The notes below the pieces were generated by a model, which was not told the origin of the DNA, made no database searches, and saw only the letters and a list, made by a program, of their open reading frames with translations. From Candidatus Andersenbacteria bacterium RIFCSPHIGHO2_02_FULL_46_16 (GTDB taxonomy: Bacteria > Patescibacteriota > Andersenbacteria > UBA10190), in assembly GCA_001817065.1 (NCBI GenBank), contig MHHQ01000007.1, forward strand, positions 1 through 49,891: DNA of 49,891 nucleotides, read 5' to 3'. Every line of letters begins with the position of its first letter. Position 1 is the first letter of the stretch. Below are positions 451 to 13,218 of this stretch, piece after piece. A program made the translations under genes and the position numbers.

Positions 451-1700
451 CAGGGCAATCGCATGAAACTTAAGGCCTAATTCCCACTACCGCCAACAAG
501 TAATCTTCATCCCAACCGGCCTGTAAGCGCCGGCTTTTTATGCTACCCTGGCCAGATTTTTCTTTACGCAATAGCGTCAATGCCAGTTTCCGTACCGCCG
601 CCAGATTTTCCTGGGCGTGGCCAATTCGTACTCGCGAATCATCTTCGCGGAAACTGACGTCCAGCGACCAGTGCAAATTGTTTTCAATCTGCCAGTGCTC
701 GCGTACCGCTTTCAGTATTTGCCGGGCGTTGCCAGCCAAACTGGAAATGTATCTGGTAGCGCTGGTTGTCCGACCGCGTTCGGTGCGCTGGCAGGTAACT
801 TGCGCGATTGACTTTAACCCCAGCCAGTCTTGCCGGCTGACACCAATGGTTTGTAGTAACCTCGGATCGCTTAAAGTAAAACATTGCCTGATCTCTGTCC
901 GCCCATGGTCTTTGTCGCTACTCTCACAATAATCGTTTTGGACGTTTTTCAAGTTCTGCCTATGGTCGTAGGTAAACAATCTTTTGAGGTCTTTTTGTAG
1001 CATCTGCTGATTACCCTTCACGGCTAAAACGTAGTCAGCGCCCTGTTCTAGAATGGTTTTGACAATTTTCTTCTGACAGCTCATGGCATCGGCTGTGACA
1101 ATACAGCCAGCCAAATCCAGTAGCTTAAGCAGTTTAGGCACAGCTGTGATTTCATTGGATTTACGACTGGTTGCCAGTTGTCCCAAGACCACGCCATTGG
1201 CCGTGGCAAAGGCGGTGACAATATGCAACGGGTCGCTTGCTTTACCGTGAGCGCGCCGGTTGGTTTTGCCATCCACGGCGACCACTTGCCCCTTGGTTTT
1301 TCTGTGGGCTGCCCGTACCCAGCTAAAGAAGCAGGTTTGAAAGGCGACGGGATCAAGCAACGCAAACACTCGGCCAAAAGTGTCGTGGGAAGGAATGCCA
1401 TGGGGCAATTCCATAAACTGCCTGAGCCACTTTTCTTTTTTCTGGCCGAACCCTACCACCGTTGGCCAGTCATCAGCGCCGCAGATAACGGCGAGGATAG
1501 TAATGACGATAATATCTATCAGTTTGTGCTTCTTCGTATTGTGATTCTCTCGCCGGGGATCCGGCAGTATTAAAAAATGCTCCAGGATGGAGCTGCTTTT
1601 GGTTTGTTTCATGATGTTGGTGTTTAGAAATTAACACCAACATATTACCTGATTGTAAGCTAGAGCGCTTGTGGGCTCATTCTTTCATGCGATTGCCCTG
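451..1700 (-). mobile_element. ISAs1-family insertion sequence
   Basis: Perfect 18-bp inverted repeats CAGGGCAATCGCATGAAA (451-468) and TTTCATGCGATTGCCCTG (1683-1700) enclose an intact ISAs1-type transposase. Confidence 0.9.
470..1612 (-). CDS. ISAs1 family transposase (H-repeat-associated type, DDE)
   Basis: 380 aa; ILPDPRRENHNTKKHKLIDIIVITILAVICGADDW N-terminus, VAVDGKTNRRAHG and HWQIENNLHWSLDVSFREDDSRVR motifs typical of ISAs1 transposases. Confidence 0.95.
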   Translation of the reverse strand: MKQTKSSSILEHFLILPDPRRENHNTKKHKLIDIIVITILAVICGADDWPTVVGFGQKKEKWLRQFMELPHGIPSHDTFGRVFALLDPVAFQTCFFSWVRAAHRKTKGQVVAVDGKTNRRAHGKASDPLHIVTAFATANGVVLGQLATSRKSNEITAVPKLLKLLDLAGCIVTADAMSCQKKIVKTILEQGADYVLAVKGNQQMLQKDLKRLFTYDHRQNLKNVQNDYCESSDKDHGRTEIRQCFTLSDPRLLQTIGVSRQDWLGLKSIAQVTCQRTERGRTTSATRYISSLAGNARQILKAVREHWQIENNLHWSLDVSFREDDSRVRIGHAQENLAAVRKLALTLLRKEKSGQGSIKSRRLQAGWDEDYLLAVVGIRP

Positions 1701-2008: not shown

Positions 2009-4408
2009 ATGAACGGGAAAAGTAGCACGAGGGCGGTAGACTTGCAGGGTAAAAGAATTCTTCTAGTTAACACTGGATCAATAAAGAAACGTTTTATTTT
2101 GCAGAAGCTGAAGAAGTTAGGTCTTATTTTGGTAGTGCTGAATAAAGAAAAAAATTGGGCGCAGAGCTATGTTGACGATTGGATTTTAGCTGATACGGGG
2201 AACTTCAAAGAATGTATACAAGCGGTTCGAGAATATTTGAAAAATAATCCAGCCAGTATAATAAATGGAGCGATGACATTTTGGGAAGACGCTGTTTTAC
2301 TGACAGCAAAAATTACAGATACTTTTAATTGGGTAGGCATTCCTTATCGGGTAGCGCAGAAAGCGCGAAATAAGTTTGTATTTCGGGAGTTTTGTGAACA
2401 GGGCGGCATACGTGCACCGCAACACGCTTTATTGAAATCGAATGAAGATTGCAAACGGGTGGCACAGAATTTCAAGTTTCCACTGGTAGTAAAGCCAGTA
2501 TATGGCGCTTCAAGTGCGTATGTTGTCAAAGTAGATGACGCAGATGATCTTTATAATACCTTTGAGTACATTCGCAAGAATATGTCTACGGAAATTGAAT
2601 CGGCGCTGGCCAATGGGCGGGATATACTAGCGGAGGAATATATTGATGGCAACGAAGTAGACGTCGATATCTTGTTGCAGAATGGAAAGGTGAAATTTTA
2701 CTCTATTACCGATAATTTCCAAACTCGAGAGCCTTTTTTTGTGGAAACGGGAGACGCAATCCCCTCGAGTCTGCCGGCTTGGGAGCAACATAAACTAGTG
2801 GAGTTAGCGGAGGAGGTTTTAGAAAAGCTCGCGATCCAAAATGGGTGTATTCATTTTGAAGCGAAGGCCGCGAAGGACGGGCCGGTACCGATCGAAGTGA
2901 ACTTACGTATGGGCGGAGATTATGTATACTCGTTTATCAAGGGTGTTTGGGGTGTGGATTTAATTGAGAACGCAATTAAAATTGCCTGTGGAATATACAT
3001 CAGCCATATACCTAAACCGGAGCGACCTTTGAAGTTTTTGGCCGGTAAATATTTTTTACCAGATAACTCGGGGATACTGGCTAAACTTGATATAGATGAA
3101 AAAATGAAAAATGACTACCATCTGGAAGAAGTGAGCCTCAATAAGAAAATTGGAGATCCGATTCTAGTACCACCTGAAGGATACGAGTTTTTAGGATGGC
3201 TGACTGTAGCCGGGGAGAATGCGATTGATACACAGGACAATATAAGAGACCTTAGTAAAAGCGTGACTTTTGAAGTGGCGCGGTTCGATCGTGATTCTTT
3301 TATTGGCAAGACTTCGCGCAAGAATAGATTTTCAGCAGCAAGGTTGAATAAAGATAGTCTGCTGCGGGCGTTTAAAAAAGAAAATATCAAGCGGATATCG
3401 ATAACTGACCTGCGCAGTCTGAACATAGGTATTGCTTATAATACCTATGCGGAAGGCGAGAATCAGCTGGCAGAAACACAATCGGAAACAGCTAGGATGA
3501 TGGAGCAGACACTGAAAGACCTTGGTTATAAGACAAGTATTTTTGACTACAATGTGCTGGCGGATGTATTCGAATCGCTGCGTATCAGTGATGTCAACCT
3601 TGTCATAAATGCCAAAGCGCGGGTGCTGGATTCAGAGTACGGGGAGGTGCATGCAGCAGCATTGTTGGATATGTTAGATATTCCCTATACAGGGCCGAAT
3701 CCGACAACTCTCGGGGTGTGTCGTGACCTAACACGGATAAAAAAACTTCTACAGTTTCATAACATCCCTACGCCTAAATGGGATTATGTTTATGAGCTGG
3801 AAGATGAGATTCGTGAAGACTTAAGATTTCCACTAATTGTTAAACCGATGTATGAGGGGGGGCCGATTAAGATAGGGCAGCAATCAGTCGTAACAGATAA
3901 GCAGATGCTGCAGGATGCCTTGAATGTCTACATTAAACAGTTGAATATACCTGCCATTATTGAAGAATTTATTGATGGTGATGAATACGAAGTGGTGATA
4001 TTGGGTAACGAAAATAATGTCCGGGCATTGCCGTTATCACGGGTGATTTTTCAAAATCAACCGGCGGGCGTCTGGCCCATGCGCGTACAGCGAAGTATGG
4101 GAATGGAGGGAGAGACGAAGGATATCGTGGTGCAGCACCCGCCTAAAAATATTCCTAAAAAACTTGAATCGCTAATCACCGAAATGGCGCTTGATACTTA
4201 TAATATTTTAGAGGGGGCGGATTTAGGCCAAGTAATAATTCGGGTAGATAAAGACCTTAATCCTCATATTATTAGCTTTGATCCATTGCCCTCTTTGCAT
4301 CCGCAAGGAGGTGTGGCTAGTGCAGCGGCAGTAATTGGCATTAGTTATAGCGAACTATTAGAAGAAATTGTGCGCATTGCGATTACGAGGTACAAAAACG
4401 AGGAATGA
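2009..4408 (+). CDS. Two-domain ATP-grasp protein (L-amino-acid-ligase-like N-half fused to D-Ala-D-Ala-ligase-like C-half)
   Basis: 799 aa. N-half: FPLVVKPVYGASS, IHFEAKAA...PIEVNLRMGGD. C-half: GEVHAAALLDMLDIPYTGPNPTTLGVCRDLTRIKKLL, FPLIVKPMYEGGPIKIG, IIEEFIDGDEYEVVILGN (Ddl-like). Confidence 0.88.
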   Translation: MNGKSSTRAVDLQGKRILLVNTGSIKKRFILQKLKKLGLILVVLNKEKNWAQSYVDDWILADTGNFKECIQAVREYLKNNPASIINGAMTFWEDAVLLTAKITDTFNWVGIPYRVAQKARNKFVFREFCEQGGIRAPQHALLKSNEDCKRVAQNFKFPLVVKPVYGASSAYVVKVDDADDLYNTFEYIRKNMSTEIESALANGRDILAEEYIDGNEVDVDILLQNGKVKFYSITDNFQTREPFFVETGDAIPSSLPAWEQHKLVELAEEVLEKLAIQNGCIHFEAKAAKDGPVPIEVNLRMGGDYVYSFIKGVWGVDLIENAIKIACGIYISHIPKPERPLKFLAGKYFLPDNSGILAKLDIDEKMKNDYHLEEVSLNKKIGDPILVPPEGYEFLGWLTVAGENAIDTQDNIRDLSKSVTFEVARFDRDSFIGKTSRKNRFSAARLNKDSLLRAFKKENIKRISITDLRSLNIGIAYNTYAEGENQLAETQSETARMMEQTLKDLGYKTSIFDYNVLADVFESLRISDVNLVINAKARVLDSEYGEVHAAALLDMLDIPYTGPNPTTLGVCRDLTRIKKLLQFHNIPTPKWDYVYELEDEIREDLRFPLIVKPMYEGGPIKIGQQSVVTDKQMLQDALNVYIKQLNIPAIIEEFIDGDEYEVVILGNENNVRALPLSRVIFQNQPAGVWPMRVQRSMGMEGETKDIVVQHPPKNIPKKLESLITEMALDTYNILEGADLGQVIIRVDKDLNPHIISFDPLPSLHPQGGVASAAAVIGISYSELLEEIVRIAITRYKNEE

Positions 4409-5475
4409 TTATGAAAGAGATAAGGGTAGAAAAGAACGAGCTTCAATTTCGGGAGCCATTCGCGATTGCGTACGAAACAGTAGAATCAGCACCGATCCTC
4501 TTGTTGATATTGAAGGACGAGGAGGGGAATGTTGGGCTGGGCAGCACGGCACCAGACGAGACGGTGACTGGGGAAAATATCGACGAAATAAAAAAATTAT
4601 TAGAGCAACGCGTGGGTTTGGATTTTTTTTCTCATCCTATAAAAGACAGGTCTTGGTATGAAAATAAAATACGACAAGATCTAGCTGGCTACCCATCAGC
4701 GCAAGCAGCTGTTGAAACAGCGTTACTACATCTGATAGCACTACAAGAAGGAGTAAATCCGCAAGACTTTTTTGGAACTTGCCGGCAATCCTGCAATTTG
4801 GTAGTGACAGTGGGTATCAAGCCGTTACCGGAGACCCTGACTGAAGTTAAAAAACGAGTGAACGATGGATTCAAATTAATCAAGCTGAAAGTTGGTTTAG
4901 ACGTGGATGGTGATATTGAAAAAATACAGGCGGTACGTGCGGCCTTACCAACAAAAATCAAATTAGTGATTGATGCTAACCAAGGCTATTCATATAAGGA
5001 AGCAAGGCGTGTGCTCAATGCGGTAGGTAACCTGGATATTGCCGGCGTCGAGCAGCCTGTGCCAGCGGACCAGAGGGAGGAGTTTAGAAAGTTGCGGGAA
5101 TTGGAAATTTTGCCGTTGATCGCTGATGAGCTAGCAACTAAAGCGAAGGAAGCAAAGATGCTACTGGCACAAGGTTATGCTGATGGTATTAATGTGAAAA
5201 TGATGAAGTTTGGGGGTCCGAGCTCCTGTCAGGAAATTATTGAATATGCCTTGGAACGATCGAAGTTGGTCATGTTGGGATGCATGTATGAGTCGAATGT
5301 TTCGATCACGGCGGCGGCCTATCTGGCGCTGGCATACCCAATTAATTTTGTTGATCTGGATAGCGGGCATTTTGATTTTGATGACGATGCAACGCTGGGG
5401 GGAGCTAAGGTGAAAAATGGTATTCTACGATTGAAAGGGATACCTCGGTTGAAGATGAGTAAGGAAAAACTATGA
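4405..5475 (+). CDS. Dipeptide epimerase (L-Ala-D/L-Glu epimerase-like, enolase superfamily)
   Basis: 356 aa; FKLIKLKVG (KxK), VIDANQGY, GVEQPVP, IADEL metal ligands, NVKMMKFGG lysine, VDLDSGHF DxD motif. Overlaps preceding stop (ATGA). Confidence 0.9.
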   Translation: MIMKEIRVEKNELQFREPFAIAYETVESAPILLLILKDEEGNVGLGSTAPDETVTGENIDEIKKLLEQRVGLDFFSHPIKDRSWYENKIRQDLAGYPSAQAAVETALLHLIALQEGVNPQDFFGTCRQSCNLVVTVGIKPLPETLTEVKKRVNDGFKLIKLKVGLDVDGDIEKIQAVRAALPTKIKLVIDANQGYSYKEARRVLNAVGNLDIAGVEQPVPADQREEFRKLRELEILPLIADELATKAKEAKMLLAQGYADGINVKMMKFGGPSSCQEIIEYALERSKLVMLGCMYESNVSITAAAYLALAYPINFVDLDSGHFDFDDDATLGGAKVKNGILRLKGIPRLKMSKEKL

Positions 5476-6101
5476 GACAGCAAGCGAAGGTAGTCATTGG
5501 GCCGGGAATGTTTGATAAAACCTATTTCCAAGCGGGGAATTATAATGATTATAAGGAGATTGCCTTGGTGTGGACGGGACGGGTGGCGCGCCGGATAAAA
5601 AGAACGTCAGGGAAGAAACACCCCCAAGTTTTAGATGTGGGGTGCGCGCATGGTTATTTGATGGTGGCGTTGCAAGGGGAGGGTTGCCAGGTTAAGGGGT
5701 TGGAATACTCACGCTATGTAATGAAGAAAGCCGAAAGAGCGGTGCGTAAGACGATCGAGGAGGGTAGTGTATTGGATGACAAATTTCCTCCTAATGAGTT
5801 TGATGTGGTGGTATGTTTGAATGTTTTGGAATATATACCGGAAGGTCAGGTTGAGAAAGCATTAAGAAATCTGGTGAGATGGACCGGCGATCTCATATTT
5901 TTTACCACGTGTTTTAAGCATTCCCGATATGCGTCCCAAAAACACAGCCCGGACAATCTGCGTATAACCATAAAAACAGAGAAGGAGTGGATAGACCTTT
6001 TTCAAAGAGTGGGGGCTGCTTATAAAGAAATGTTTTATGACGGTGGTGGAGGAGACGTATTAGTGTTTAGAAAGAAATATGACCAAGCCCATACACGTTG
6101 A
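5472..6101 (+). CDS. Class I SAM-dependent methyltransferase
   Basis: 209 aa; motif I VLDVGCAHGYLMVAL, FDVVVCLNVLEYIPEG; ATGA overlap with upstream gene. Confidence 0.88.
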   Translation: MRQQAKVVIGPGMFDKTYFQAGNYNDYKEIALVWTGRVARRIKRTSGKKHPQVLDVGCAHGYLMVALQGEGCQVKGLEYSRYVMKKAERAVRKTIEEGSVLDDKFPPNEFDVVVCLNVLEYIPEGQVEKALRNLVRWTGDLIFFTTCFKHSRYASQKHSPDNLRITIKTEKEWIDLFQRVGAAYKEMFYDGGGGDVLVFRKKYDQAHTR

Positions 6102-7464
6102 AGCAACCATAGAAGAAAGAGGCATTAATATTATTGTAAATGGTTGTGTTTTACCGATTGTATACCCCAGTCGGGTATGGCAAGCCTATCCGCAACAATT
6201 AAAGGAAGTGTTAAGGGACAATATTGCTCTAAGCAGTACGTATTTTGTGCCGCAAATTTTGGGCAAGAACTATATTGCATATAATACTTCGCGTCCAATC
6301 AGCGAGGCTTTCCTGTTCAAAAACGGCATTTATGACATGCCAAATTCGGCGTTGACTGATGGAGTATCGTCGCTGTCTTATATAAAAAAATTTATAAATA
6401 CGGTGGCGACCTTTCAGAATAATGACATTCACATACCAGCGATTGATACTCACCGTCACTACCCCAAAGAAGAAAGTATGGTCATCCCTTTCACCTTTGG
6501 GAAAGACAGCCTGTTGACTGTGGCGCTGGCGCAAGATATTGGCATCAGACCGCATTTAGTATATTTCATTGAACCGGCGCATTTATATGAGTACCAACAT
6601 AAAAAACGGCTCAAGAAATCATTCAGCAATAAGACAGGCTTAGTGGTGGAAGAGGTAAAGTATGAACCGGGGAAGATGAGGTATGGTGGTTTATGGAATA
6701 AGGAGACTGAACTCGGATGGGGGCTTCAAACAACAGAATATGCATTAATGACACTACCATTTCTATATTTTTATGATGCAGCCTATATCGGCATAGGAAA
6801 CGAGTATTCCTGTGGCGAAGCGGGCTTAAATGCGGAGGGCGTGCTGACACATTGGACAGGATACGATCAGCATCCGGACTGGACATCACAACAAAGTTTG
6901 CTTGTGTCGCTGGTGGGAGGGGCGTCAAGAAGAGTGGTGAGTTTAGTTGAGCCGCTGCATGAAATTGCGGAAGTAGCTATTTTGCATCGAAGATATCCGA
7001 AATTTGGACAGTTTCAGACGTCTTGCTTGGCAATTGGACAAGGGGCAGAGGAAAATCGTTGGTGTCAGCGGTGCGAGAAGTGTGGTGTTATGTATACATT
7101 TTTAAAAGCGTTAGGTGTGGATGTTAAGCAAACTGGCTTTACGGAAGACTTATTAGATAAAAATCATATCAAGCTTTTCAATAACCTCTTTAATTCAAAG
7201 GAACCATCTCTTTTCTATGCGGTGGAGGAAGAAATTTACCTGGCAATGTACATGGCTCGTAGAAGAGGTTGTGATGGAGAAGTACTGCGTGTTTTTGCAG
7301 AGAAAATATTGCCAAAATTTAAACAGTCAGTCGAGAAGTACAGTCAGGAATTTTTTTCTGCACATACTACTAATAATCTTCCGAACGACATTAGTAAACA
7401 AGTTTTGCAGATTTATAATGAGGAATTGGATAAAATACGTTTAGAAATTAAGGAATTCACGTGA
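6079..7464 (+). CDS. PP-loop/HUP-type protein resembling MurL (UDP-MurNAc-L-Ala-L-Glu epimerase-like)
   Basis: 461 aa; variant PP-loop FTFGKDSLLTVAL, YIGIGNEYSCGE, RVVSLVEPLHEIAEVAIL, SCLA...RWCQRCEKCGVMYTFLKALG layout as in MurL-family proteins. Confidence 0.6.
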   Translation: MTKPIHVEATIEERGINIIVNGCVLPIVYPSRVWQAYPQQLKEVLRDNIALSSTYFVPQILGKNYIAYNTSRPISEAFLFKNGIYDMPNSALTDGVSSLSYIKKFINTVATFQNNDIHIPAIDTHRHYPKEESMVIPFTFGKDSLLTVALAQDIGIRPHLVYFIEPAHLYEYQHKKRLKKSFSNKTGLVVEEVKYEPGKMRYGGLWNKETELGWGLQTTEYALMTLPFLYFYDAAYIGIGNEYSCGEAGLNAEGVLTHWTGYDQHPDWTSQQSLLVSLVGGASRRVVSLVEPLHEIAEVAILHRRYPKFGQFQTSCLAIGQGAEENRWCQRCEKCGVMYTFLKALGVDVKQTGFTEDLLDKNHIKLFNNLFNSKEPSLFYAVEEEIYLAMYMARRRGCDGEVLRVFAEKILPKFKQSVEKYSQEFFSAHTTNNLPNDISKQVLQIYNEELDKIRLEIKEFT

Positions 7465-8543
7465 TCGTGAACGGTCTGATTACCCATAATGAGATGGTGT
7501 CCCTGCTACCCTTACGGTGGAAAAATTATAATTGGCTGGGATCGCAAGAAGACCAGTTTTTCTTATCCTTTGCTGACGCCTGGCGAGGAATTATCAAACG
7601 AGTGGATATTAAGGTGCGAAAAATACTCGTACCGGATTTTTATTGTCCAGAGACGTTGGCGATGTATAAAAACTATGGCACGCTACTGTTTTATAAGACG
7701 AATCAAGATTTGACGATTGATATTCCCTCTTATTTAATGGCTGTAAAGTCGTATCGACCTGATGTAATTATTAACTATGGTTATATTTCCTCACCGTTAC
7801 AAGATAAAAATGTAAGGTTGCTTCTGGGAAAGTTGCCCGAAACCATTGTTATTGAAGATTGTGCCCATCGGATAGTATTGAAAGATGACTTGGTTTTTGT
7901 TCATAGTAATCATTTTTATATTGACAGTATAAGAAAACAAACGGGTATACTTGGTAGTCATTTGGTGGACCAGTCGCAATTATTGAAGAAGGAACATTTT
8001 TCCAGAATGAATAGTTATAAGATCAAGAGTACCTGGCTTAAATTTTTACAGGAGGCAATCAATTTGAGTACGTATCTTGTGCAATCGCGAAAATTGTATG
8101 GAAAAAGTGAAATTTACTTTGAAAAACTTGATAATCTAATAGGCACTTACGAAGAGCCGACTTTGGGTAGTGTTTTATCTGGCAATATATGGAATCATCT
8201 TGATTTAACAAAACTGATGGCACACAAGCAAAAACTAGCGAGTGTGTATCTAAAGAGATTAACAGGAATCAAGCAGGAGAACTTTTATGTACCACCCTTA
8301 GCTGAACGTAACTTATCTTACTTCCCGTGTCTGGTTTACGGAGCGAATAACGAACGATTAGTGGAATATTTAGCGACTAGGAATATTTGGATTGGATCGT
8401 TGTGGGATTTGCCCTCCAGACAGATAGCAGGTCTTAATAATGATTTGTATAGATCTGTTTTAGTTTTACCTCTGACATGGAAAACTACCGTAAATGATGT
8501 CATGCTCGTGTGCCAGGAGATAGATTACTTCTTCGGTATGTGA
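7461..8543 (+). CDS. Divergent DegT/DnrJ/EryC1-like (PLP aminotransferase fold) protein
   Basis: 360 aa; KILVPDFYCPETL, TIVIEDCAHR (ED.AH motif), YIDSIRKQTGILGSHLV (candidate PLP-lysine region). Overlaps upstream gene. Confidence 0.6.
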   Translation: MIVNGLITHNEMVSLLPLRWKNYNWLGSQEDQFFLSFADAWRGIIKRVDIKVRKILVPDFYCPETLAMYKNYGTLLFYKTNQDLTIDIPSYLMAVKSYRPDVIINYGYISSPLQDKNVRLLLGKLPETIVIEDCAHRIVLKDDLVFVHSNHFYIDSIRKQTGILGSHLVDQSQLLKKEHFSRMNSYKIKSTWLKFLQEAINLSTYLVQSRKLYGKSEIYFEKLDNLIGTYEEPTLGSVLSGNIWNHLDLTKLMAHKQKLASVYLKRLTGIKQENFYVPPLAERNLSYFPCLVYGANNERLVEYLATRNIWIGSLWDLPSRQIAGLNNDLYRSVLVLPLTWKTTVNDVMLVCQEIDYFFGM

Positions 8544-8700
8544 ATTTGGTGAATGAGCAATGGGTGGTAGCTGGTTTTGAGGGTATGCTTTGATTGTTGT
8601 TGGGACTGGATTGACGATGAAGGAAGCACAGAAACACGCTTATTCAAGAGTTAAGAATGTTTTGATCCCTGAAGGGAGCGGAGAATAAGTTAGGTATTTA

Positions 8701-10560: not shown

Positions 10561-11037
10561 ATGCCACGAAAGAAAAGAATATATAAGAATAAGGAGTTTT
10601 TAAGACCGGATCCTAAGTTTGGTAATTTGATGCTATCAAGGTTTATTAACCAAATTATGCGCCGAGGCAAGAAGTCGATTGCGCAGAAAGTGGTCTATGG
10701 GGCGCTGGATATTGTATCAGAAAAAACGAAGGACGACCCGTTAATGGTATTTGACGCGGCCATCAGAAATGTAGCGCCGGTGTTAGAGGTAAAAGGCAAG
10801 AGAATCGGCGGAGCTAATTATCAGATTGCGCAAGAAGTTAGAGGAGACAGACGTGAAACATTGGCAATGCGCTGGTTAAAAGAGGCAGCCAGGACGAGAA
10901 GTGGCAAAGCGATGGCGGAAAAATTGGCAGCAGAGCTGATTGATGCATCGAAAAAAGAAGGCGGCGCCATGAAACGACGAGAAGAAGTCCATCGCATGGC
11001 GGAGGCTAACCGGGCATTCAGTCATTTTGCACGCTAG
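10561..11037 (+). CDS. rpsG: 30S ribosomal protein uS7
   Basis: MPRKKRIYKNKEFLRPDPKFGNLMLSRFINQIMRRGKKSIAQKVVYGALD... Confidence 0.98.
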   Translation: MPRKKRIYKNKEFLRPDPKFGNLMLSRFINQIMRRGKKSIAQKVVYGALDIVSEKTKDDPLMVFDAAIRNVAPVLEVKGKRIGGANYQIAQEVRGDRRETLAMRWLKEAARTRSGKAMAEKLAAELIDASKKEGGAMKRREEVHRMAEANRAFSHFAR

Positions 11038-11091
11038 CTGATACCTGATATTTAAGTTTGTAATTTAGGTTTTTTAGACACACGACTTTTT

Positions 11092-13218
11092 ATGGCAGTG
11101 GAGAAGAAACAATTTCCTCAAGTACCGATAGATAAGGTAAGAAACTTTGGTATTATTGCTCACATTGATGCTGGAAAGACGACAGTATCGGAACGCGTTT
11201 TATTTTATACCGGCTTAACACATAAGATTGGAGAAGTACATGAGGGAGCGGCGGTCATGGACTGGATGGACCAGGAACGAGAACGGGGCATTACTATTAC
11301 GTCGGCCGCTACGACTGCTTTCTGGAAAGGCTATCGATTAAATCTAATTGATACACCAGGACATGTGGATTTTACTATTGAAGTGGAACGAAGCTTGCGG
11401 GTGTTGGACGGAGCGGTAGTGGTATTTGATGGAGTGGCTGGAGTGGAACCGCAGAGTGAAACCGTGTGGCGACAAGCAGATAAATACAAAGTGCCGCGGA
11501 TGTGTTTTATTAATAAATTAGACCGGACAGGCGCTGACTTTTGGAAAGCGGTTGATTCTATCCATGAGCGGTTGACCAAAAATACCGTAGTGATGACATT
11601 GCCGATCGGAGCGGAAGAAAAGTTTGATGGACTGGTGGACTTAATTACGGAAAAAGCCTGGTATTTTATGGGTGAGCGTGGCGAGACGATAGAAACGAGA
11701 GAGGTTCCAGAAGAGATGAAAGAAGAAGTAAAAACGAGGCGAGCTGAATTGGTGGAGACAGTAGCCGGGTTGGACGACGTTTTGTCAGAAAAATTCTTGA
11801 ATGACGAGAGCATTTCGGTTGATAAATTGAATAAGGCGCTGCGCCGGGCAGTTATCGCTAATGAAATAGTACCAGTATTTTGTGGCTCGGCATTAAAGAA
11901 TAAGGGCGTACAGAGAGTGCTGGACGCGATTATTGAATTTTTACCATCACCCGGTGAGTTGCCGCCTGTAGAAGGAACATTACCGTATGACGAGGAGACG
12001 AAAGTAGAAAGAAAACTGATTGATAGCGAGCCTTTTACTGCTTTAGCCTTTAAAGTGGCGACTGATCCATTTGTCGGACAGATTACCTTCTTTCGGGTTT
12101 ATGCAGGAAAACTTAAATCAGGATCATACGTACTAAATGCTTCGAATGGTAAAAAGGAACGGATTAGCCGGATATTAAGGATGCATGCCAATGACCGTGA
12201 GGAAGTGGAGGAAATTACTGCGGGTGGAATCGGAGCATTGGTTGGTTTGAAGTACACCACTACCGGCGATACACTGTGCGATCCAGATGAGCCGATTGTA
12301 CTGGAAAGAATTGTCGGCGCGGAGCCAGTTATTTCGATAGCGGTAGAACCGAAGACCAAGGCTGACCAGGAGAAGATGGGTATGGCTTTGAAGTCGCTGC
12401 AGGATGAAGATCCAACTTTCCGAGTGAAGACAGACCCTGAAACATTGCAAACAATTATGCAGGGTATGGGTGAGCTGCATTTGGAAGTGTTAACGGAAAG
12501 GATGAAGCGCGAGTTTGGTGTGGAGGTTAATGTTGGCCGACCACAGGTCGCTTATAAAGAAACTATCCGAAAGACGGTGGAGACAGAAGGCAGATACATC
12601 AAGCAGAGTGGTGGACGAGGTCAATATGGTCACGTCTGGTTGCGTTTGGAACCGCTGGAACGCGGTGCTGGTATAGAGTTTGAGGATGAAGTAAAAGGCG
12701 GCGTGATCCCGCGGGAATATGTACCGGCCATTAAGAAAGGTGTGGAAGAAATGGTGCTAAATGGCGTGCTGGCTGGTTACCCGGTGGTAGATGTCAGGGC
12801 AGTGGCGTATGACGGCAGTTACCATGATGTGGATAGTTCAGAAATCGCTTTTAAGATCGCGTCAGCCATGGCTTTTCGCGAAGGTTTCAAGAAAGCTGAT
12901 CCAGTTTTACTGGAACCGATCATGAAGGTTGAGGTTACGACACCAGAGTCATACATGGGTGACGTGGTGGGTGATATGAATGCCAGACGTGGACAGGTGG
13001 ATGGAATTGAGAATCGCGGCACTACTAAAATCATCGACGCCAAAGTACCGTTAGCGGATATGTTTGGTTATGCCACAAGCCTGCGATCAATGACACAAGG
13101 AAGAGCGGCTTATGTCATGGAATTTAATCACTACGAGGAAGTGCCACGAAATTTACAGAACGAAATAGTCGGTACAGCGCTGGAAGGTAAAGGCAGTGTT
13201 AAGAAAGTCGCGGACTGA
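11092..13218 (+). CDS. fusA: Elongation factor G
   Basis: [38 protein letters not shown], full length 708 aa. Confidence 0.99.

Follow-up and report, generated by a model that had tools for sequence, protein, structure and literature searches.

Small peptides can be assembled without a ribosome by ATP-grasp ligases, among which the L-amino-acid ligases (LALs), such as BacD of bacilysin, BL00235, and TabS, and the D-Ala-D-Ala ligases (Ddl) are of the type that joins free amino acids. Stereochemistry can then be altered by the dipeptide epimerases of the enolase superfamily, including the L-Ala-D/L-Glu epimerases, or by MurL, an enzyme that inverts a terminal residue at the cost of converting ATP to AMP (PMC5808125, PMC8788868). 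An engineered penicillin route combines TabS with a dipeptide epimerase, the ligase providing an L-L dipeptide and the epimerase inverting its C-terminal residue (PMC13338154). Graspetide clusters also bring ATP-grasp chemistry to genomes of the candidate phyla radiation (CPR; PMC8939145), although biosynthetic clusters are in general uncommon in streamlined genomes (PMC12455944). Here, we analyze a five-gene operon of Candidatus Andersenbacteria bacterium RIFCSPHIGHO2_02_FULL_46_16, located in a stretch of 49,891 nucleotides (the window) at the start of contig MHHQ01000007.1 (C7). The genome (G000) measures 1.36 Mb and is 98.5% complete, and the CPR/Patescibacteria origin claimed for this DNA in an earlier note holds. 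We consider it rather likely, with a probability of roughly 0.6, that the operon was gained laterally and is a cluster for template-independent peptide biosynthesis, based on ATP-grasp enzymes and operating independently of non-ribosomal peptide synthetases (NRPSs). Whereas the penicillin route is an artificial mix of enzymes from different organisms, the corresponding families are found here in one natural operon, and whereas the CPR graspetide clusters act on ribosomally made precursors with ATP-grasp enzymes of other families, this operon is built around a fused LAL-Ddl ligase.

The five operon genes and their ligase and epimerase

The earlier note had described five consecutive open reading frames (ORFs) on the plus strand with overlaps of 4–23 nt, and had read them as a double ATP-grasp ligase, a dipeptide epimerase, a methyltransferase dependent on S-adenosylmethionine (SAM), a MurL-like PP-loop protein, and a DegT-like protein, together making an epimerized and methylated peptide. 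The coordinates are confirmed, with successive junction overlaps of 4, 4, 23, and 4 nt:

2009..4408, + strand: gene 1, LAL-Ddl, 799 aa
4405..5475, + strand: gene 2, dipeptide epimerase (enolase superfamily), 356 aa
5472..6101, + strand: gene 3, SAM-dependent methyltransferase, 209 aa
6079..7464, + strand: gene 4, MurL-like PP-loop protein, 461 aa
7461..8543, + strand: gene 5, probable divergent DegT-type protein dependent on pyridoxal phosphate (PLP), 360 aa, GTG start

These are not chance ORFs, since homologues of genes 1, 2, 4, and 5 stand side by side in other Patescibacteria.

Gene 1 does contain two ATP-grasp halves, and the assignment can be refined to a fusion of a BacD-type LAL (approximately residues 85–430) with a Ddl-type ATP-grasp half (approximately 470–795): residues 85–399 match BL00235 (3vot, 2.2e-29) and BacD, residues 538–794 match D-Ala-D-Ala ligases (3r23, 2.2e-16), and the Pfam domains ATP-grasp_4, LAL_C2, and Dala_Dala_lig_C agree with this division. 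In an alignment of 15 LAL-Ddl proteins, from which active-site status was read, the N-terminal half of the window protein retains K162, E209/E210, E284, E296, N298, and R300; it thus has the homology over the catalytic region and the ATP-grasp residues of the BacD-type ligases, along with LAL_C2. It differs from the known LALs in being fused to a Ddl-type second half and in its partners, which are epimerase and MurL-like genes instead of anticapsin-type neighbors. The C-terminal half is homologous to Ddl but, besides being fused, lies far under the family cut-offs.

Gene 2 matches the solved proteins 3rit (1.7e-41), 3jva (2.2e-36), and 1jpm (2.1e-34), and it matches NF041118 at 1.5e-49, under that family's cut-off. 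The KxK, D-E-D, lysine, and DxD motifs noted earlier are all in place, with K160/K162, the metal ligands D190, E216, and D241, the catalytic K265, and D317-x-D319 aligning with the three solved enzymes and being invariant across the four operon epimerases (the window and three relatives). Gene 2 therefore shares the fold family, all catalytic residues, and the DxD with the L-Ala-D/L-Glu epimerases, but residue 24 is Glu in all four operon proteins, as opposed to the Arg of the B. subtilis Ala-Glu enzyme, which we take to be a marker of L-Ala-D/L-Glu specificity, and the gene lies in an operon with ligases and not with peptidoglycan recycling. Glu24, together with KamA-like, SET, and LysA-like neighbors in relatives, hints at a basic residue, possibly lysine, in the peptide; this is a lead only, because 3rit, presumably deposited with L-Arg-D-Lys, has Arg at that position, and Glu24 was accordingly not accepted as proving that the C-terminal residue is basic.

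The remaining genes are more divergent or more generic. Gene 3 encodes a generic SAM methyltransferase (Methyltransf_23, 1.5e-13, and others), whose match to part of mad2 (2e-11), again of the generic methyltransferase kind, was the sole one for the operon genes in PADLOC-DB, a collection of anti-phage defense systems. Among the loci listed, a counterpart of this methyltransferase adjoins LAL-Ddl in the window and at locus L060 only; the L060 protein is 27% identical to gene 3 and its gene overlaps LAL-Ddl by 4 nt. Gene 4 yields a predicted structure with a mean predicted local distance difference test score (pLDDT) of 85.5 that matches QatC and QueC, and an alignment with the MurL proteins of genomes G381 and G050 reveals the PP-loop, (G/S)NE, and SC...WCxxCxxC motifs of canonical MurL, the last in the form SC(x)nWCxxCxxC. 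QueC activates a carboxylate by adenylation. This fits MurL, where ATP is converted to AMP (PMC5808125), and the model and motifs mark gene 4 as a distant homologue of MurL whose PP-loop fold resembles that of QueC. In gene 5, the motifs EDxAH and SxRK, 26 residues apart, are invariant in three relatives, and those listed Foldseek hits of its low-confidence model that we recognized all belong to PLP fold type I. A divergent DegT-type PLP enzyme is the probable, though weakly supported, assignment. PDB sequence searches with the MurL-like and DegT-like proteins returned nothing useful.

Conservation, modularity, and probable transfer

The earlier note had named the lack of a conserved neighborhood in any relative as grounds for giving up its proposal; such a neighborhood does exist. 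At least nine genomes carry LAL-Ddl beside or near a MurL-like gene (the window, L032, L033, L063, L064, L066, L069, L086, and L133; L053 and L069 are the same contig, counted once), with the epimerase joining the pair in four (the window, L064, L066, and L086), of which the window, L064, and L086 have the DegT-like gene as well. Both partners are rare and patchily distributed: strong MurL-like matches (E < 1e-30) occur in 8 of 290 sampled genomes of the phylum, or about 3%, and full-length LAL-Ddl in 15 of 384. With some thousand genes per genome, a rough estimate gives far fewer than one locus at which the two would adjoin by chance. Together with the phylum search, a wider scan covering 85,462 species with one genome apiece, from which the best 80 loci were kept, yields no fewer than some 34 distinct LAL-Ddl genes of full length, nearly all of them from Patescibacteria; among the matches listed, two Elusimicrobia, one Diapherotrites, and one contig labelled Chromatiales lie beyond that phylum.

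The five-gene set is, however, just one arrangement of a more variable family. Among the matches listed, other LAL-Ddl loci have as neighbors Acetyltransf_6 (a GNAT acetyltransferase) in about 11 genomes, a LysA-like decarboxylase in six, and a SET-domain gene or a third ATP-grasp gene in five each, while transporters of the ABC and MFS types occur at L063 and L060, respectively. In the tree of MurL-like proteins, the window clusters with L086 and L133 (99/97), but by its LAL-Ddl L086 belongs with L061/L062 (100/100), away from the window, so the same partners have been joined to different LAL-Ddl clades. Genes at these loci appear to be swapped as they are in biosynthetic clusters. At L033 (genome G275), the gene of a lysine-2,3-aminomutase-like (KamA-like) radical SAM protein (10740-11669) separates the MurL-like gene from a further LAL-Ddl gene, and a SET-domain gene follows.

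Nine genomes were sampled from the family to which the window belongs, and in none of them do LAL-Ddl, the epimerase, or the DegT-like gene have a strong match. In addition, an insertion sequence ends about 300 bp upstream of the operon, and for both reasons lateral acquisition is likely. The element, which is bounded by 18-nt perfect inverted repeats (451-468 and 1683-1700), comprises the following:

451..1700, − strand: insertion sequence in the upstream flank, not a functional part of the operon (DDE_Tnp_1_assoc 3.2e-32, DDE_Tnp_1 4.5e-25)
470-1612, − strand: its transposase (DDE_Tnp_1_assoc / DDE_Tnp_1 matches)

On the 3' side, ribosomal protein, translation-factor, and glycolysis-type genes (partly assigned by reading the sequences) place the operon in a genuine chromosomal context. 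Directly after gene 5, at 8590-8700 of the window, a short open stretch reads by eye as LIVVGTGLTMKEAQKHAYSRVKNVLIPEGSGE; it looks like the C-terminus of a PurD-type ATP-grasp protein and is probably a gene remnant. Searches against PHROGs, PADLOC, and Rfam gave nothing informative, promoter and terminator scans gave no clear excess over chance, and the viral contigs scanned with LAL-Ddl gave no match.

A proposed peptide route and its alternatives

The family assignments, the intact LAL and epimerase active sites, the fold and motifs of gene 4, and the conserved gene association all point, at the level of sequence and prediction, to peptide biosynthesis, and from them we infer the chemical steps, their order, the substrates, the product, and its role. 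The LAL half would use ATP, yielding ADP, to turn one amino acid into its acyl-phosphate and would then couple it to a second, giving an L-X-L-Y dipeptide; the dipeptide epimerase would reversibly invert the C-terminal residue of the free dipeptide; and the Ddl half might add a further residue, an optional extension that may be impaired in the window genome. The MurL-like protein would adenylate the terminal carboxylate (ATP to AMP) and so make the C-terminal epimerization one-way, and the methyltransferase and the DegT-like protein would modify the peptide or cap it. Such a route would end in a small di- or tripeptide with a D-residue, probably exported or attached to the envelope. The epimerized, methylated peptide proposed at the outset thus keeps its footing in the presence of ligase, epimerase, MurL-like, methyltransferase, and PLP-type families in one conserved operon, whereas its synthesis, epimerization, and methylation are steps that we infer.

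Several observations weigh against this interpretation. In the C-terminal half of the window ligase, Asp747 of the metal site is kept but the conserved, Mg-binding Glu is replaced by Ser and the Asn by Asp, so it lacks the complete Asp, Glu, and Asn set of E. coli Ddl and is probably impaired or altered; the Glu is kept in 12 of the 15 aligned proteins, the halves of L058 and L059 being more degraded than the window copy, and in most relatives the Ddl half is probably active. Membership in the MurL family is remote: gene 4 scores 9.8e-7 and 27.6 bits against the curated MurL model NF041275, whose cut-off is 700 bits, and it belongs to no Pfam family. It could, by analogy with QueC-like proteins, form amides instead. 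The DegT-like label has weak sequence support, as the window protein gives no Pfam DegT hit, its L086 relative stays under the gathering score (0.0035, 17.0 versus 19.8 bits), and the gene 5 model (pLDDT 51) is too poor to place the fold. The window operon contains no exporter gene. LAL-Ddl stands alone in several genomes, so the full gene set is not obligatory. Finally, G000 encodes neither MurI nor a canonical MurL, and a role in the cell wall would explain the missing MurI.

Such a role, in which the operon would stand in for MurI by providing peptidoglycan with a D-residue or a dipeptide, had already been offered as an option in the earlier note, and we regard it as unlikely. It could take the form of L-Ala-L-Glu made by the LAL and then epimerized, or of MurL-type epimerization of a muropeptide. 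The missing MurI keeps it alive: G000 has MurC-G and MraY for peptidoglycan precursors, the family members G010, G032, and G151 do have MurI, and MurI is absent or broken in G275, G293, and G057, all of which carry LAL-Ddl next to a MurL-like gene. The MurL/MurD2 pathway, on the other hand, would call for a MurD2 partner, of which the operon has none, and the G000 MurD carries the active-site motif of relatives that have MurI and hence shows no sign of a change to L-Glu; a Lys-to-Ala change considered as a MurD2 signature was rejected because those relatives have it too. D-Glu might also come from other sources, either a class IV aminotransferase of G000 that is missing from MurI-bearing relatives or a DapF-like protein, DapF being known to make D-Glu in Chlamydia (PMC5885031). 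In addition, MurL-like genes, unlike MurL, turn up both where MurI is present and where Mur ligases are nearly absent: G143 has MurI and MurD together with a MurL-like gene adjoining two Ddl-like genes (L038 8742-12232, where they follow it directly, in a related yet distinct arrangement), and G092 and G147 have a MurL-like gene yet only one weak Mur-ligase match. The Glu24 of the epimerase likewise departs from the B. subtilis Ala-Glu enzyme.

Some further loci touch on these enzymes. In G000 itself (L155 7720-10413; contig C27, approximately 60.7-63.4 kb), the DapF-like gene shares an overlap with a tandem pair of Ddl-like genes; C39-peptidase-like genes come next, and at a greater distance a radical-SAM/SPASM gene (L155 16468-17835); this is possibly a second peptide-related neighborhood or a D-amino-acid supply for the cell wall. 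In G050, which belongs to the same order as the window genome and is without MurI, MurL and a MurD-like ligase are apparently fused in one 883-aa frame (L159 7756-10407). MurL-like genes with no LAL-Ddl nearby adjoin envelope-type genes at L035 281-1831 (G092), L036 6853-8520 (G155), and L037 7902-9464 (G147), and two convergent MurL-like genes lie adjacent at L034 8967-11820 (G207), also with no LAL-Ddl nearby.

Somewhat less probable than the cell-wall role is a capped-peptide solute or conjugate, comparable to the osmolyte N-acetylglutaminylglutamine amide, for which the ligase would work with a PP-loop enzyme that forms an amide or ligates, with no MurL-type epimerization. Gene 4 folds like QueC and QatC, which put carboxylate activation to other reactions, the GNAT gene adjoins LAL-Ddl in the roughly 11 genomes counted above, and many LAL-Ddl loci are without an epimerase; against this stand the four operons whose epimerase retains every catalytic residue and the Cys motif that gene 4 has in common with canonical MurL. 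That the ATP-grasp protein of gene 1 modifies a ribosomal precursor, as in the graspetides reported in CPR (PMC8939145), is very improbable, since it is of the LAL/Ddl type and no precursor was noticed among the listed window ORFs, in which short ORFs had no systematic search.

Peptide biosynthesis thus remains the interpretation that we prefer. The earlier note did not recognize the combination of genes as a described pathway, and we found no published description of it in the open-access literature; as subscription papers and preprints lay outside that search, the novelty of the operon is provisional. More tentatively, and with somewhat less than even confidence, we suggest that Patescibacteria possess a class of modular peptide clusters in which LAL-Ddl takes the place of an NRPS and tailoring genes are exchangeable, and that in this branch two epimerases of different mechanism, one reversible and of the enolase type, the other ATP-driven and of the MurL type, act on one small peptide used with hosts or competitors. 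If the proposed route is correct, ultra-small, reduced bacteria that are mostly dependent on other cells would make D-amino-acid peptides with a compact, NRPS-free toolkit, and expressing the operon would be a concrete way to reach a molecule through which they might interact with hosts or rivals. In nature it would then mirror the recent, artificially assembled ligase-plus-epimerase chemistry (PMC13338154), and the MurL family would have a reach beyond the cell wall.

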